From the NCBI GenBank assembly GCA_030529995.1, contig JAUMVT010000029.1, positions 1 to 33,556 on the forward strand: a DNA stretch of 33,556 bases, in the 5' to 3' direction. Positions 622 through 33,556 of the stretch are shown piece by piece. Numbering within the stretch: the stretch's first letter is position 1; each line of letters opens with the position of its first letter. The notes below the pieces were generated by a model that made no database searches, was not told the origin of the DNA, and saw only the letters and a program-made list of their open reading frames with translations. Source of the stretch: Clostridia bacterium. GTDB taxonomy: Bacteria; Bacillota; Clostridia; Christensenellales; Aristaeellaceae. Both the position numbers and the translations under genes were made by a program.

Positions 622-1224
622 TTATTCCTCTTGTTCCCAGGAGGGCTTCATTTCCGTAAAGGTTTCGTAGTGATCCGCTGTGTAGTACACCAGCCCGTCA
701 TTGGAGAAGATGATCCGCTCCGCCCCTCGCCGGGTGCCGGTGTAGTTGCAGTCGCATTCGTAGTACTTCCGCCCCTTGGCGGTGGGCAGCTTCTGTTCAT
801 AGTTGCCGAAGTAATCCCCGCCGATGGACTTGCCGGGAGCCACATCCCCCACATAGTTGCTTCGGCTGTCCCACCCCAGGGCTTGGGCTTCCTTCTTGGT
901 GATGAAGTTGCCCGGCAGCCTGCCGTAGGTGAACAGGTAATCCGCAATATCCTGGGGGGCGGTGTAGGTGCCGTCCTCTTCGATGGCGGCGGCCGCAGGC
1001 TCCGGCGTGGCGGTGGGGGCAGCGGTGGGCGTGGCGGTGGGCGACGCTTTCTTCTTTTTCTTGCTCTTGGCCACAAGGGCGGCATGGTCATCCTCCGCCG
1101 ATAGGGTAATGGCGGAAGCCTGGGCAGGCGTCAGCAGGGACAGCAGCCCTTCCGAGGGGCTCAGCACCATAAGCAGTGCCATCAAAAGGGCAAGCAGAGA
1201 AGTGAAGAAAGATTTTTTCTTCAT
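622..1224 (-). CDS. Secreted barnase-type ribonuclease (N1/T1 superfamily)
   Basis: 200 aa. Residues 1-38 form a signal peptide: MKKK, a long hydrophobic core, and an AQASA-like signal-peptidase site. Next come a lysine run (54-59) and a Pro/Thr/Ala linker (61-80). Residues about 90-191 closely match Bacillus barnase, including ITKKEAQALGW, DVAPGKSIGGDYF, ERIIFSNDGLVYY and TADHYETF. The catalytic set is complete by alignment from memory: Lys110 (barnase Lys27), Glu156 (Glu73), Arg170 (Arg87) and His185 (His102). The expected product is an extracellular guanyl-preferring endoribonuclease. The start at 1224 has AAAGGA upstream; an in-frame extension to 1374 would bury the signal peptide. No barstar-like inhibitor gene is visible nearby. 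The EamA transporter gene lies upstream on the same strand, 150 bp away. Family assignment is firm. Confidence 0.92.
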   Translation of the reverse strand: MKKKSFFTSLLALLMALLMVLSPSEGLLSLLTPAQASAITLSAEDDHAALVAKSKKKKKASPTATPTAAPTATPEPAAAAIEEDGTYTAPQDIADYLFTYGRLPGNFITKKEAQALGWDSRSNYVGDVAPGKSIGGDYFGNYEQKLPTAKGRKYYECDCNYTGTRRGAERIIFSNDGLVYYTADHYETFTEMKPSWEQEE

Positions 1225-1374
1225 ACCATCATTCCTTTCAGGATTTCGAGCGAATGGCTTTGCTGTATAAGCGAGATTTGCACGCTGTCGTTGGTTGAAA
1301 ATAGAAGCCGACAAGTCGCAGGGGGCTTCCTTTTGTTGAGGAGTGCAATCTTCGGATTGATTGAGCAGTCGCAT
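1225..1374 (-). other. Intergenic gap with repeat D remnants
   Basis: No gene is seen. Fragments such as GCGAGATTTGCA and TGCAATCTTCGGATTG also occur in the repeat D copy at 29743-29985, and GCAGGGGGCTT is a family A half-arm. It looks like decayed repeat sequence. The barnase promoter may lie here, but I found no convincing -35/-10 pair. Confidence 0.4.
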
Positions 1375-2238
1375 TTATTTCACCAGCATCAGCAGGGTGC
1401 CGGCCACAATGGCGGCAAGGCCTGCCGCCGCCTTCCGGCTCAGCTTCTCCTGAAACACCACCCGGGAGAAGAGCACCGTGACCAGAATGCTCAATTTATC
1501 AATGGGCGCCACCACGCTGGCAGGCCCGTCCTGCAAGGCTTTGTAGTAGCACAGCCAGCTTGCCCCGGTGGCCAGGCCGGACAGGCAGATGAACCCAAGC
1601 TCCTTTTTTTCGATGTGCCGGAGCTCCTTCCCCTTGCCGGTGACCAGCACCATCATCCAGGACATGATCAGCACCACCCCGGTCCGCAGGGCTGTGCCCA
1701 GGTTGGACTCCACATTGGTGATGCCCACCTTGCCCAGAATGGCGGTCAGGCTGGCAAACAGGGCGGAACCCAGGGCGTACCACAGCCAGCGGCTGTCCTT
1801 GGCGGTGACATTTTGGGTGTCCTTCTTCTCCAGCATCAGGAAGGTGCCGGCGGCAATGAGGAGGATGCCGATGCCGCTTGTCCATGTCAGGGACTCGCCA
1901 AGCAGCAGCACCGCCAGCAGAATGGTCAGCACCGTGCTGGACTTGTCAATGGGCACCACCTTGTTAATGTTCCCCAGCTGAAGGGCACGGAAGTAGCACA
2001 GCCAGCTTGCCCCGGTGGCAAGGCCGGACAGCACCAGAAACAGCAGGGATCGGCCGTCCACCTGACCCAGCTGACTTTGGGAACCCACCAGCAGCACCAT
2101 GACCCAGGAAAACGCCAGCACAATGATGGTTCGCAGTGCCGTTGCCACGGTGGAATCCGTTTTGCGGATGCCGCACTTGGCAAGGATGGAGGTCACCCCG
2201 GCGAAGAAAGCGGAACCGAATGCAAGTACCACCCACAT
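1375..2238 (-). CDS. EamA-family (DMT superfamily) transporter
   Basis: 287 aa, about ten hydrophobic segments. It is a clear internal duplication: each half carries a nearly identical block, GLATGASWLCYFRALQ near residue 70 and GLATGASWLCYYKALQ near 215, each followed by VVPIDK / VVAPIDK. This is the two-EamA-domain architecture of drug/metabolite exporters, which usually move amino acids, nucleosides or metabolites across the cytoplasmic membrane. The substrate cannot be read from sequence. The start at 2238 has AAGGAGATG eight bases upstream. The gene is divergent from the ImmA/IrrE-like gene; the 240-bp gap holds a hairpin repeat and the promoter of the latter. Confidence 0.9.
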   Translation of the reverse strand: MWVVLAFGSAFFAGVTSILAKCGIRKTDSTVATALRTIIVLAFSWVMVLLVGSQSQLGQVDGRSLLFLVLSGLATGASWLCYFRALQLGNINKVVPIDKSSTVLTILLAVLLLGESLTWTSGIGILLIAAGTFLMLEKKDTQNVTAKDSRWLWYALGSALFASLTAILGKVGITNVESNLGTALRTGVVLIMSWMMVLVTGKGKELRHIEKKELGFICLSGLATGASWLCYYKALQDGPASVVAPIDKLSILVTVLFSRVVFQEKLSRKAAAGLAAIVAGTLLMLVK

Positions 2239-2295
2239 GATGATTCATCTCCTTGATTTTTCCTCCCCCACTATAGCGCAGATGGGCGGGGGATG

Positions 2296-2324
2296 CAAGG
2301 GGGCAGTGAGTCAAGCCCCCTGCG
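2296..2324 (+). repeat. Family A-like hairpin
   Basis: Arms GGGGGC / GCCCCC around the loop AGTGAGTCAA. It resembles family A but lacks the CCCCTTCGG tail. A second small palindrome, GAAAGT / ACTTTC, follows near 2373-2395. The rest of this divergent gap holds nothing recognisable except the promoter at 2416. Confidence 0.45.
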
Positions 2325-2415
2325 TATTGCCAATTTATACGCTTGACCGTTGGCAGCGTGCGAAACTTGAAGAAAGTGACGGAGTGACTTTCTCGAATAC
2401 TTGTTCCTGTTCCTC

Positions 2416-2444
2416 TTGCAAACGCCCGTTCTCTATGCTATGAT
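2416..2444 (+). promoter_or_regulatory. Sigma-70-type promoter of the ImmA/IrrE-like gene
   Basis: TTGCAA, 17-bp spacer, TATGAT. The predicted start near 2451 gives a leader of about 30 nt before ATG 2481. Confidence 0.7.
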
Positions 2445-2480
2445 GTTCCTGTCGGTGTGGACGGGAAGGACAGGGAGCAT

Positions 2481-4346
2481 ATGGAGAAGCAGGGAGAATG
2501 GGCGCCGGTATTGCAGCGCATGGGGGACTACATCATCCGCCACTTCGGGGATGAAATGCTTCAGGAGGTGGAAGGCTGCCTGCAGGGGGCGGCCTTAAGG
2601 GATCTGCACATTGATCCGGCAGGGGATCTGGGGCTAATGCCCGGGGAAAGCTATCGCCTGGTTTTCGACCGGAGCGGCAGCAGGCTGGGGCGGTTCCGGT
2701 TTTATCAGGTGACACGCACCGGGCTGATGATCCACGCCGGGGCACGGATCCGGCTGGGGGTGGTCGGGGAGCATCAGCTGCCCCGGTACTTCCTGCGGCA
2801 GGTGTACTTCATCACCGGGTTTCACATGGAGGACGGGATACGGCGCATCGGGGAGATTCCTGCCGTGTTCTTTGATCCCCCTGCCCCTGCGGATGTGCCG
2901 GAGCTGTCCGACTATCTGGTGCCCATCCTCCGCAGCGAGGACATGGAGGATCTGTTCCGTCAGCGGCTCCGCCAATGCCTGGGAGACGGGGCCATGACCA
3001 TCCTCCGCCGCCGGGGTCCTACGGCGCTGACCCAGGCCTTGGGGCTGACGGTTCGCACCCTGCCCCTGCATGAGCACCGGTACAGCCGTGCCATGCTCTT
3101 TCTGGAGGAGGGGGAGGTGCAGATCACCACGGAGGACGGCGGGCATCAGCCCATCCGTGTGCCGGGAAAAACCATCATCCTCAACAGCAACGCCGCCCGG
3201 AAGGACGAGGCCGGCAGCGACCTGGCCATTTACCACGAGTGCGCCCACTACGAGTTTCACACCATGTTCCTCACCCTGCACCAGCTGCACCGGACGGATC
3301 TTCGCCTGCTGCCATACAGGGAGGCGGACAAGGCTTCCCGTGGGGCAGCCAAGGATCTACGGTGGGTGGAGCGGCAGGCGGATTACTTCGCCTACGCCGC
3401 CATGCTGCCCCGGGGGCTGCTGGTGCCCCTCATGCGCCTGTACTGGGAGGAAACCGAGGGGAAGGACATGAACACCGGGGATCGGGTGGACAGGGTGATT
3501 TACCGGATTGCCCGGGATCTGCAGCGGCCCAAGTCCCTGATCCGCACCCGGATGATCCTCCTGGGCTCCGCGGCGGCGAAAGGTGCCTGCAACTATGTGG
3601 ACGGCCGATATATTCGCCCCTTTGCCTTTTCCGGGGAGCATCTGAAGGCCGGGGAAACCTTCGTCATTGACCGGGGGAATTTTACCCGGCTGTACGGGGA
3701 GGATGAAACCTTTCGGGAGCTGATTCGCTCCCGAGGGTTCCTGTACGCCGAAGGGCACGTGTGTCTGGATCATCCCTTCTGCATCGAAAAAAACAAGGAC
3801 GGGATCCGGCTGACGGAATGGGCACGGGGGCACGTGGACGAGTGCTGCCTGAAATTCCGCCGGGAATACCGTTTCGCCCCTGCCGCCGCCCCCACCGGGG
3901 TGCTCTGCTCCGTGCAGGGATTCAATGACCGGTATGTGCCGGTGGATCCGGACGTGACCGACAGCATGACCCGGGAGGAGACCATCACCCAGGACGCCGC
4001 CTATCTGGCCGCCCTGCCCCGAACCCCTGCCCAGGCGCTGTCGAAGCTCATTGCCGACCGGTGCGGCACCCAGCGGGAGGCCGCCTTCCGCTGCGGATTA
4101 TCCGAAAGCATGGTCAGCCGCATGTGCAGCGACAACACCTTCCGCTACGACATCCGTCAGGTGACCCGGCTGGCGGTGGGGCTGTCCATGCCCCCGCCCC
4201 TGTCCGGCCTGTTCATGGAGATGGTGGGCTTCCCCCGGATGATGATGCTGAACTACTACCGCTACGAGTGCATCATCCAGTACCTCTACATGGAGGACAT
4301 GGAAACCGTGGAGGAGAGCCACAGGGAGATGTTCGGGAAAACGTGA
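2481..4346 (+). CDS. Large ImmA/IrrE-like metallopeptidase with C-terminal HTH-like segment
   Basis: 621 aa, far longer than ordinary ImmA/IrrE proteins (roughly 150-300 aa). Residues 1 to about 170 resemble nothing I recognise. A typical M78 core follows: a beta-rich approach with IILNSN, then HECAH (His252, Glu253, His256; HExxH zinc motif), and about 45 residues later VERQADYFAYAAMLP, the ExxADxFA block expected to give the third zinc ligand. Near residues 519-575, the segment with TQREAAFRCGLSESMVSRM looks like a helix-turn-helix. ImmA cleaves phage-type repressors and IrrE triggers the DNA-damage response, so a regulated protease that binds DNA is plausible, but this is inference. ATG 2481 is chosen for AGGGAG just upstream; GTG 2457 would fall almost on the transcription start. 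No repressor gene or phage gene is adjacent. Confidence 0.75.
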   Translation: MEKQGEWAPVLQRMGDYIIRHFGDEMLQEVEGCLQGAALRDLHIDPAGDLGLMPGESYRLVFDRSGSRLGRFRFYQVTRTGLMIHAGARIRLGVVGEHQLPRYFLRQVYFITGFHMEDGIRRIGEIPAVFFDPPAPADVPELSDYLVPILRSEDMEDLFRQRLRQCLGDGAMTILRRRGPTALTQALGLTVRTLPLHEHRYSRAMLFLEEGEVQITTEDGGHQPIRVPGKTIILNSNAARKDEAGSDLAIYHECAHYEFHTMFLTLHQLHRTDLRLLPYREADKASRGAAKDLRWVERQADYFAYAAMLPRGLLVPLMRLYWEETEGKDMNTGDRVDRVIYRIARDLQRPKSLIRTRMILLGSAAAKGACNYVDGRYIRPFAFSGEHLKAGETFVIDRGNFTRLYGEDETFRELIRSRGFLYAEGHVCLDHPFCIEKNKDGIRLTEWARGHVDECCLKFRREYRFAPAAAPTGVLCSVQGFNDRYVPVDPDVTDSMTREETITQDAAYLAALPRTPAQALSKLIADRCGTQREAAFRCGLSESMVSRMCSDNTFRYDIRQVTRLAVGLSMPPPLSGLFMEMVGFPRMMMLNYYRYECIIQYLYMEDMETVEESHREMFGKT

Positions 4347-4365: not shown

Positions 4366-4403
4366 GCGAGAGGGCGGCTTTTGTGCCAAAAGCCCCCTCT
4401 CGC
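4366..4403 (+). repeat. Family C palindrome, C1 type
   Basis: Arms GCGAGAGGG...CTTTTG and CAAAAG...CCCTCTCGC nearly close a 16-bp hairpin. It is followed by the spacer CTCTCCCCGAAAAGCAGCTGG, shared (in either orientation) with the copies at 21610-21834 and 30076-30212. Confidence 0.75.
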
Positions 4404-4441
4404 GCTCTCCCCGAAAAGCAGCTGGGAGCGAACGTGGAATT

Positions 4442-4477
4442 GCGGGAGGCGGCTTTTGAGTCAAAAGCCCCTCCCGC
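4442..4477 (+). repeat. Family C palindrome, C2 type
   Basis: GCGGGAGGCGGCTTTTG-AGT-CAAAAGCCCCTCCCGC. It is the partner of the C1 unit at 4366 and is followed by CACCCGAAAACCGGCTGG. Confidence 0.75.
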
Positions 4478-4544
4478 ACCCACCCGAAAACCGGCTGGGC
4501 TTGACGTAGCCCTTTGGAAGATGTTTAGCTTTGCAGGGGGCTTT
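4476..4544 (+). repeat. 69-bp direct repeat, copy 1
   Basis: Identical by eye to 4652-4720. It runs from GCACCCACCCGAAAACCGG to the first arm of a family A repeat (GCAGGGGGCTTT). Confidence 0.85.
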
Positions 4545-31933: not shown

Positions 31934-33001
31934 TTATTGTTTCGCTTCGGAGGGAGCCTGTTCTTTGGCCATTTCCTCGCTGATCGCCTTGTCCTTGCGG
32001 AAGCCGTGAACCACGGTGGTTACAGCCCCCACCAGAATGGAGATGTAGTAGGTGAAGAACCGCCACAGCAGCAGTGCCATCAGACGAATGCCGTCGGGGA
32101 ACACCTTCGAGAAATAAATGGCGAAGACGCCTTCCTGTGCGCCGGATGCGCCGGGCAGGGGGGTGTAGGCGGCGCTGACGTAGAGCATAATGCCCAGGGT
32201 GGTCAGCTCCAGATAGTTGGAGCCGGTAAGCTCAAAGGCGCAGTATACCAGGAAAATGGGCAGCATCTGTGCCAGCAGAATGGCACCGCCCAGCACCAGC
32301 TGTATAAAGAAATCTTTGGGGTGGGTGCGCATGGACATGACACTTTCGTGGAAGGTGCTGAGAATGTCCTCCCACTTCACCAGAGTAGCCTCCGGGTTCT
32401 TGCAGATGCGCAGCTTGGTGCCGATGCGGATGAACAGCTTGATGAAGAAGCGAACCAGGTTCTTGTTCACTGCCATCATCAGCACAAAGGACACGGTGAT
32501 CAGGTTGTAGGTGTAGCCCACGATTAAAATCCAGATGCTGGAGCCGGTCTGCACGGCGATGTAGTCCCCGTAGGCAATCCACAGCACGGTGGAAAGCACC
32601 GCCAGCATGAACTGGAAGCAGAAGAACTTCACCGTCAGGGCGGAGGTACCGATGCCGATGGGCACACCCTTCTTCTTCAGGTAATAGACCTGCATGGGCT
32701 GGCCGCCGGTGGCGCCGGGGGTCACATTGGAGTAGTACATGCCGATAATGGAATTAAACAGGGCATAGCGGAAGGAAACCTTGTAGCCCTGGCAGCGGAG
32801 ATAGTGCCAGATGGTACCGGCATCCAGGCACAGATGCAGCAGGTAGGCACCTACGCAAAGGATGATCCACACCGGCGCAATGGACTTGAGGGCATCCACC
32901 GCCCCGGTCATTTCCTGCCCGTTGATACCGACCAGCAGCACAAGCGCCAGGGTGCCGAAGATCAGTGCGAAATTCAGAATCTTCTTCGTCCGGGACTTCA
33001 T
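31934..33001 (-). CDS. Flippase-like integral membrane protein (LPG-synthase TM / UPF0104)
   Basis: 355 aa, about eight transmembrane segments. Family landmarks: GMYYSNVTPGATGGQPMQVYYLKKKGVPIG (about residues 85-115, TPGxxGGxPxQ), SALTVKFFCFQF and near the C-terminus AYTPLPGASGAQEGVFAIYF. These belong to the membrane domain shared by MprF (lysyl-phosphatidylglycerol synthase/flippase) and related lipid-glycan transporters such as AglD. The C-terminal aminoacyl-transferase domain of MprF is absent, so this is the stand-alone form, probably moving a lipid or lipid-linked sugar. ATG 33001 follows AAGGAGGGCCT; an in-frame upstream extension to 33094 is proline-rich and unlikely. Confidence 0.88.
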   Translation of the reverse strand: MKSRTKKILNFALIFGTLALVLLVGINGQEMTGAVDALKSIAPVWIILCVGAYLLHLCLDAGTIWHYLRCQGYKVSFRYALFNSIIGMYYSNVTPGATGGQPMQVYYLKKKGVPIGIGTSALTVKFFCFQFMLAVLSTVLWIAYGDYIAVQTGSSIWILIVGYTYNLITVSFVLMMAVNKNLVRFFIKLFIRIGTKLRICKNPEATLVKWEDILSTFHESVMSMRTHPKDFFIQLVLGGAILLAQMLPIFLVYCAFELTGSNYLELTTLGIMLYVSAAYTPLPGASGAQEGVFAIYFSKVFPDGIRLMALLLWRFFTYYISILVGAVTTVVHGFRKDKAISEEMAKEQAPSEAKQ

Positions 33002-33033
33002 AGGCCCTCCTTGTTGCTTCACAATTACAGCAC

Positions 33034-33063
33034 AGTATAACACATTTGTCGGGAAAGTGGCAA
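33034..33063 (-). promoter_or_regulatory. Possible promoter of the flippase-like gene
   Basis: On the minus strand TTGCCA, 18-bp spacer, TATACT. Confidence 0.5.
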
Positions 33064-33177
33064 TACACGGAGGGAGATTTTGCGGGGGCGGCAATTTCCG
33101 AAATCAATGCCGCAGCGCATGGCTGAGGCGGAAAAACCCGTCAGCTTTTTGCTGTTTTCTCACGGTCAATTCCATGG

Positions 33178-33206
33178 TTGTTCTTTCCCGGCTGATATGT
33201 TATAAT
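33178..33206 (+). promoter_or_regulatory. Strong promoter upstream of the tRNA-half/structured RNA
   Basis: TTGTTC, 17-bp spacer, TATAAT. The predicted start near 33213 is about 24 nt before the tRNA-like segment, and GTGCCGTGCGGCATGGCAC in that leader can fold. Confidence 0.8.
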
Positions 33207-33236
33207 AAACGCTGTGCCGTGCGGCATGGCACGCTT

Positions 33237-33275
33237 GGTCTCGTAGCTCAGTAGGATAGAGCGGCTGCCTCCTAA
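33237..33275 (+). other. tRNA-Arg(CCU) 5' half without its 3' half
   Basis: Acceptor strand GGTCTCG, T8-A9, D-stem GCTC/GAGC with loop AGTAGGATA, anticodon stem strand GCTGC and loop CTCCTAA with anticodon CCT. After A38 the tRNA pattern stops: no GCAGC strand, T-arm or CGAGACC follows. It aligns with the second tRNA at 33517 with about seven differences, including a paired change in the D-stem (GCTC/GAGC against CCTC/GAGG). Confidence 0.85.
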
Positions 33276-33514
33276 TAAGAAGTCGGACTGCCGCCTGAAT
33301 TGAGCGACCGGATAGCAAGATTCCTCCTGATTTCGTCCGATTTTCCCTCCCAGAGCTACCGCCAAACTGCTAACATCAGGCGGAAGATGAAGGGCTCGTG
33401 AAAGTCGAACACGCCGCCCGCAGTTAGCCAGCTAACGCGGAAAGCCCGGATGACTCCCCTCGGTCAGGAAGACCGAAAAGCTCGAAAGCCTTGTAAAATA
33501 AGGATTTCGAGGAC
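33276..33514 (+). ncRNA. Highly structured RNA fused to the tRNA half (raiA-like?)
   Basis: No open reading frame of note. Pairings seen: CCGCCTGA (33291) with TCAGGCGG (33376); GAAGTCGGAC (33279) with GTCCGATTTT (33335), which crosses the first helix and so makes a pseudoknot; GGGCT (33392) with AGCCC (33443), closing CGTG/CACG and CCGC-a-GTTAG/CTAAC-GCGG hairpins; TCGGTC/GACCGA (33460); CTCGAAA.CCTT/AAGG.TTTCGAG (33481-33511). Size, pseudoknot, likely strong promoter and phylum recall the raiA RNA motif of Firmicutes, but this is recollection of its general features, not a match I can verify. Confidence 0.6.
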
Positions 33515-33516
33515 AT

Positions 33517-33556
33517 GGTCCCGTACCTCAGCAGGATAGAGGGTCCGCCTCCTAAG
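33517..33556 (+). tRNA. tRNA-Arg(CCU), 5' part, cut by window end
   Basis: GGTCCCG acceptor strand, TA, D-stem CCTC/GAGG with loop AGCAGGATA, anticodon-stem strand TCCGC, loop CTCCTAA (anticodon CCT) and the first G of the 3' strand. It looks like an ordinary clostridial tRNA-Arg; the T-arm lies beyond the window. There is no terminator between it and the structured RNA, so they may be co-transcribed. Confidence 0.85.

Follow-up and report, generated by a model that had tools for sequence, protein, structure and literature searches.

What divides the tRNA-Arg(CCU) gene at the end of this contig from a Clostridia bacterium? The window (the whole stretch of DNA analysed, 33,556 nt) is the entire contig G000:C84 of an assembly in 102 contigs that is 92.2% complete, and near its end a tRNA 5' half behind a promoter-like site leads into 241 nt of other sequence and then into the 5' end of a second tRNA-Arg(CCU). 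A preliminary description had proposed a raiA-like or new structured RNA with a captured tRNA half, a self-splicing intron, or the scar of an element that integrated in the anticodon loop. The reading set out here, to which a probability of about 0.9 is assigned as a whole, is that the segment is the attL of an integrative element inserted in the host tRNA-Arg(CCU) gene, which replaces the tRNA that it interrupts and most likely uses the host promoter. Integration was thus retained from the earlier proposals and the plain scar was given up, since the segment is an attL with a replacement tRNA.

The contig end

Positions 33237-33275 (forward strand, as for all features below unless stated) comprise the acceptor 5' strand, D-arm, anticodon 5' stem and loop CTCCTAA of tRNA-Arg(CCU), and were assigned by sequence inspection and comparison with relatives to the displaced 5' half of the host gene; the earlier identification of a tRNA-Arg(CCU) 5' half with a D-arm was borne out by the sequence. 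The last 7 bp (33269-33275) are the attL core CTCCTAA, the presumed crossover region within the anticodon loop, as the same 7 bp stand at 5' half/leader, right end/3' half and right end/left end junctions. The following 241 nt (33276-33516) were delimited by alignments of relatives as the left end of the element, a type-A leader that would serve both as attachment arm and as tRNA leader. The 5' part of the element's replacement tRNA-Arg(CCU) occupies 33517-33556, has the same loop CTCCTAA, and is readable up to CTCCTAAG, where the contig stops at 33556 within the anticodon stem and cuts off the remainder. The preliminary description had also noted this second 5' end with the same anticodon loop; it begins at 33517, and the whole tRNA was found in relatives. 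Its loop (33549-33555) would be the next integration target. GCCTCCTAA is present twice in the window versus 0.17 copies expected, and two copies occurred in 1 of 100 shuffles. Over the window as a whole, ARAGORN called no tRNA and Rfam gave no family.

A promoter-like site (TTGTTC, 17 nt, TATAAT; 33178-33206), assigned by match score and presumably that of the host tRNA-Arg(CCU) gene, precedes the half tRNA and now lies upstream of the element. Within the leader, GCTAAC at 33369-33374 and an inverted GTTAGC/GCTAAC pair at 33423-33436 (no strand assigned; found by inspection) are putative arm-type sites of the integrase, a role suggested by enrichment of these hexamers in the relative G008. 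Folding gave a small hairpin (CGGTC-AGGAA-GACCG, 33461-33475) and, from the tails of long leaders, a hairpin immediately 5' of the replacement tRNA (33481-33511).

The first 281 bases of the element and its left junction are what the window contains. In the own genome (assembly 92.2% complete), searches did not recover the element's far end and the host 3' half that should adjoin it; a pattern search for that half returned only a tRNA with loop CTTTTAA. The host open reading frame adjoining the tRNA (31934-33094, reverse strand) belongs to the LPG_synthase_TM family (PF03706), and in a search for an empty site homologues of this upstream neighbour were found in 36 of 100 genomes, including the own genome.

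Left ends, right ends and nested arrays in relatives

The junctions, reunited halves, complete replacement tRNA, nesting and rarity of promoters in leaders described below are read from sequence, mostly that of relatives, and the strongest evidence comes from relatives selected for holding displaced halves. In a DNA search of 150 relatives, the leader was 89-91% identical in G008, G080 and G025, partial in G081 and G053, and present in more distant forms in other relatives. In G008, G080, G147, G028 and G073, among others, the leader runs on into a complete tRNA-Arg(CCU), and by eye a terminator-like stem and T run follow the complete tRNA in relatives. Leader types A, B and C were assigned by short motifs, with 6 of 32 long leaders remaining "X". 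The 5' half before ten type-A units varies (GGTCTCG, GGTTCCG, GCACCCG, GCGCCCG, GGTCCCG), and behind these units the same GGTCCCGTACCTCAGCAGGATAGAGGGTCCGC occurs in 9 of 10. Since the half tRNA varies between hosts before near-identical leaders, it belongs to the host gene.

Pattern scanning of species genomes returned 40 left ends at 36 loci, all titled as MAG or uncultured Clostridiales, Clostridia or Christensenella, with goat, sheep or roe-deer gut named in 13 of the 36 titles. A 5' half precedes 38 of the 40 left ends; the 40 lead into an intact tRNA (16), a further 5' half and leader (5), a 5' half at the record end (2), the record end before any tRNA (15), or a tRNA lacking its middle (2). 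Replacement tRNAs without a middle were seen at three loci, L132 (= L035, G025), L134 and L037 (= L023, G055); the loss starts exactly behind GTA[CG]CTCAG in all three, the right breakpoints differ, and the cause may be either faulty assembly where an insertion is nested or a true lesion. The intact-tRNA pattern matched once in 107, not at all in 93 and twice in none of 200 family genomes, counted as a single list; elsewhere some genomes carry two handles (e.g. G166/G213 and G170/G194, judged from contig numbers and positions).

Two left-end loci were unusual. At L154 (6587-6660), the intact tRNA is followed by a direct repeat of 46 bp that starts at the core and duplicates the tRNA 3' half. 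At L151 (G172:C9, 106299-106340), the left end is preceded by an inverted core (TTAGGAG...CTCCTAA) without a 5' half, and lies near degenerate-looking tRNA sequence. That left end made the 106-kb contig G172:C9 a candidate circular element, which was dropped: its termini showed no overlap of 15-300 bases, and by eye its open reading frames looked unlike those of an element.

For the opposite end, CTCCTAA followed by a T-arm was searched for in 19 chosen genomes. Displaced 3' halves were preceded, instead of by a 5' half, by a recurring sequence (cgttagaaa...cagtaata...cgaac..., then CTCCTAA), taken as the right ends of elements, and less often by other sequences. 19 of 28 displaced 3' halves paired at 12 of 12 tested positions (7 acceptor, 5 anticodon-stem) with a displaced 5' half of their own genome, versus 101 of 1020 pairs (9.9%) in a cross-genome control, with all genomes in the test selected for holding such halves. 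The other 9 of the 28 were without full reunion, one of these nine (in G147) is no tRNA half, and three more 3' halves, outside the 28, had no 5' half to pair against. Unusual acceptors also reunite: CTCTCCG/CGGGGAG (G147), GTTTCCG/CGGGAAC (G265) and GCGCCTG/CAGGCGC (G055, G072). Four junction types were seen, namely 5' half/3' half (the intact gene), 5' half/left end, right end/3' half and right end/left end, and all four have CTCCTAA in common; the last type was found at L223, where the two ends abut as they would in attP or in tandem copies.

G147 (L033, L111-L115) has seven exact matches to the CCU 3'-half pattern, one of them inside an intact tRNA, and several different sequences in front of its 3' halves, as if several element families used the site. 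At L207 (G166:C120, oriented 856-4194), a displaced 3' half has a different right end and is followed by two open reading frames that presumably resemble serine recombinases.

46 distinct units of 5' half, leader and 5' half were collected, with leaders of 44, 53-57 or 189-262 nt; across elements, the leader from core to replacement tRNA ranges from 44 to 262 nt. At least two leaders are stacked at L130, L135, L137, L148, L153, L154, L156 and L158, stacks with 44-nt leaders occur at L014 and L015, and in G032 four displaced 5' halves stand before a fifth that belongs to an intact tRNA. Such stacked 5' halves and leaders are what insertion of a newcomer into the previous element's tRNA would give. 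By exact patterns counted by hand, 5' halves outnumber intact copies in 51 and 3' halves in 37 of 200 family genomes, both counts being inflated by contig ends. At L042 (G032, oriented 4388-4534), two 54-nt leaders with the T-loop-like GTTCGAATCC lie between tandem 5' halves.

The whole arrangement was found on one strand of a single 3,260,197-bp contig in G185. A TTGACA-17-TATACT site is followed by the host 5' half (core at 1,052,530), a 253-nt type-B leader, an intact replacement tRNA (core at 1,052,822), and a body of ~16 kb with a TetR-type regulator, a truncated integrase and an MCRA-family gene that we take to be an oleate hydratase. A right end and 3' half follow at 1,069,183, giving 16.7 kb from core to core, and at 1,073,803 comes another right end, whose 3' half pairs fully with the host 5' half, so that the host 3' half lies 21 kb from the 5' half. 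The inner 3' half has no matching 5' half, and it is plausible that two nested elements moved as one unit.

Relatives of one lambda-like tyrosine integrase lie ~300-390 bp behind the replacement tRNA in G068, G051 and G072, pointing towards the tRNA (Pfam integrase domain confirmed for G068 and G072), and G088 has a fragment of such a gene. The left core of G008 is followed after ~13 kb by an integrase gene, confirmed by a Pfam integrase domain, whose neighbours encode type III restriction, helicase and DNA methylase domains; bases 1-23,800 of the contig yielded no right-end core. In none of the loci examined did a type-A element have its two ends on the same contig. A different integrase, presumably XerC/D-like, is present as incomplete pieces in type-B and C elements (G073, G185, G170). 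Shorter bodies were found at L201 (4.0 kb, with rubrerythrin) and L205 (~0.7 kb), with no integrase among the open reading frames listed for either. Family searches of element genes returned restriction-type, MCRA, TetR, JAB and rubrerythrin families. GCTAAC/GTTAGC occurs 7 times in 680 bp at the element end of G008 versus 4 times in the next 18,323 bp, an enrichment that fits putative integrase arm sites.

Leader fold, promoter and rival explanations

The preliminary description had drawn two crossing helices in the leader, and the first rival reading takes the segment for a new structured non-coding RNA with the tRNA half as its 5' domain and a conserved pseudoknot. The sequence of the window allows both helices, type-A leaders of full length share 89-91% identity, the 241-nt leader gives a fold slightly more stable than those of dinucleotide shuffles (z = -1.95; 5 of 200 equally good), and the hairpin before the tRNA is strong (11-14 pairs, z of -4 or lower in 20 of 25 distinct long-leader tails, by single-sequence folding against mononucleotide shuffles), with two-sided changes in it judged by eye. 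Against this, helix 33279-33288/33335-33344 forms in all 11 type-A rows, which include the window twice (itself and L001), with zero two-sided changes; helix 33291-33298/33376-33383 is broken outside the window, with just 6 of its 8 pairs left in the 9 rows from relatives; and the check for covariation of these helices in homologues found none in the 11 rows. RNAalifold on 10 non-redundant leaders of types A, B and C retained only the tRNA-proximal hairpin, other leaders at the same place are just 44-57 nt long, and the half tRNA varies with the host and not with the leader. A pseudoknotted RNA was therefore not confirmed, for want of covariation and with the second helix broken outside the window; a raiA-like or new structured RNA with a captured half is not supported, as no raiA match was obtained either, and a structured RNA of this kind is considered very unlikely. 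The Rfam covariance scan for raiA and group I intron gave nothing at gathering thresholds or at E up to 10. Permissive hits at the window end at that setting (YrlA, mir-2131, RT-19 and others) were far below cut-offs and were discarded.

A self-splicing intron in tRNA-Arg(CCU) would suit the anticodon-loop position, and group I introns are known in tRNA-Arg(CCU) elsewhere, but the Rfam group I and II intron models gave no match even at E up to 10, what comes next opens as a tRNA 5' end and not as a 3' exon, and in G185 the host 3' half is 21 kb distant, which leaves the intron proposal close to negligible. That two tRNA loci of a metagenome bin were wrongly joined is suggested by the contig break right at this place in a genome of 102 contigs, and by the 17 of 40 related left ends that reach a record end at or before the second tRNA; the same junction was found in separate assemblies of many species and on the 3.26-Mb contig, which makes such an artefact extremely unlikely. 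The remaining rival, that the element body has been lost and its end and tRNA persist as a resident gene, shares its insertion history with the preferred reading and is compatible with it. The short bodies in relatives (~0.7 kb at L205, 4.0 kb at L201), the incomplete integrase pieces, and the failure to find a right end in the own assembly speak for a fossil of this kind; against it, the window ends at the tRNA, and the same type of left end in G008 is followed by ~12 kb of restriction-type genes and an integrase. We regard a fossil as unlikely.

For the promoter, a sigma-70-like site scoring at least 9/12 was found within 100 nt upstream of the outermost 5' half at 17 of 24 loci (at least 10/12 at 10), compared with 1 of 27 for the last 100 nt of long leaders (at least 10/12 in 0 of 27) and 4.8% and 1.2%, respectively, of random 100-mers from the same loci. 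7 of the 24 outermost 5' halves have no promoter scoring 9 or more, and some low-scoring upstream regions are element ends themselves. In the window, the site reported earlier is present as a promoter-like one (TTGTTC/17/TATAAT, 9/12); its -35 is poor and a stricter scan omits it. Since consensus promoters are rare in leaders and frequent before host 5' halves, the replacement tRNA is probably transcribed from the captured host promoter, and the promoter scores suggest that promoter, half tRNA, leader and replacement tRNA probably form one transcript, which is the one part of the earlier structured-RNA proposal to be kept.

Proposed mechanism and related systems

In the proposed mechanism, a tyrosine integrase, presumably also in this genome, would recombine the 7-bp CTCCTAA core of the anticodon loop with the same core on a circular element. 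The host gene would thereby be split, its 5' half and promoter remaining at the left end and its 3' half being moved to the far end. Since a 7-bp core is too short to rebuild the tRNA, the element would carry a complete tRNA-Arg(CCU) 241 nt inside its left end, a tRNA that the host presumably needs. Transcription from the host promoter would most likely run through the half tRNA, the leader and the new tRNA in a single RNA, and RNase P together with 3' processing may then release the replacement tRNA. As the new tRNA again has the core, further elements could insert, and 5' halves and leaders would pile up.

The closest comparison is the tRNA-dependent lysogeny of actinobacteriophages described in 2024 (Guerrero-Bustamante and Hatfull, PMC10865867). 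In excerpts of that paper, a tyrosine integrase uses a short core in a host tRNA gene, insufficient to rebuild the tRNA, and a borne tRNA of the same isotype replaces the single-copy host tRNA; the authors speculate on tandem integration into the borne tRNA and ask about prevalence elsewhere. The same excerpts describe the tRNA of Fionnbharth as separate from attP-int and as having a promoter of its own, which a reporter demonstrated. Judged against them, the elements described here are alike in the short core, the tRNA that is not rebuilt and the same-isotype tRNA on the element, and two corresponding features were found: a 7-bp core common to the compared junctions and a complete tRNA behind the leader in relatives. 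As for a single-copy host tRNA, at most one intact-tRNA match per genome was seen in 200, with none in 93; as for an integrase of the element, one lies beside the tRNA in four relatives (in G088 as a piece), incomplete pieces occur in types B and C, and none was seen for the window's element. The elements differ from Fionnbharth in having the tRNA within the left arm, at 44-262 nt from the core, with no promoter of its own evident and probably dependent on that of the host, and from tRNA-dependent lysogeny, as given in those excerpts, in a cargo that, where seen, consists of restriction or metabolic genes, and in the presence of nested arrays. The left-end pattern occurred 0 times in viral_contigs; phage and plasmid collections gave short tRNA-like matches only, with 0 records covering 80% of the segment; and no phage gene came to notice in the element bodies inspected, whose searched genes gave the families named above. 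Because the phage feature was looked for and not found, the system was not classed as lysogeny; it works like tRNA-dependent integration, apparently in a non-phage, promoter-capturing form in gut Clostridia.

In excerpts of the Islander account (PMC4383910), islands rebuild the tRNA with a fragment, which is a 3' fragment in 3760 and a 5' fragment in 159 of 3919. The tyrosine integrase, anticodon-loop site and displaced fragment marking the island end are shared with the tDNA islands of those excerpts; unlike these islands, which have one displaced fragment, the present elements carry a whole tRNA and displace both host halves. The fragment restoring the target tRNA at one junction, as in canonical tDNA islands, was not found.

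CIMEs, as known from ICE accretion, have attachment ends and stack at one site. The present elements likewise have attachment ends without a noticed integrase, stacked at a single site, but stack here via the supplied tRNA, which collects the leaders to one side of it and the bodies to the other. Integron cassettes are small cargo units that may need an integrase elsewhere and a resident promoter upstream; small cargo units, a possible outside integrase and a resident upstream promoter recur here, whereas the captured promoter serves the tRNA and not the cargo. In the open-access literature, no promoterless replacement tRNA inside an attachment arm and no nested tRNA-replacing stacks were found, which is weak evidence of absence.

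A wider reading, to which we would give even odds, is that mobile cassettes of Clostridia swap an essential tRNA: a promoterless tRNA-Arg(CCU) in the attachment arm would be expressed only behind the host promoter, each cassette would renew the docking site, and many, lacking an intact integrase, would use the integrases of others. If this is true, supply of the tRNA would both select for and report insertion. The arrangement would be a form of tRNA-dependent integration in gut Clostridia, apparently outside phages, with the tRNA inside the attachment arm. tRNA annotation and island finders that look for a single fragment would misread such sites. With the target re-created by each element, stacked displaced halves would record the order of arrival, and the host would come to depend on keeping the newest element.
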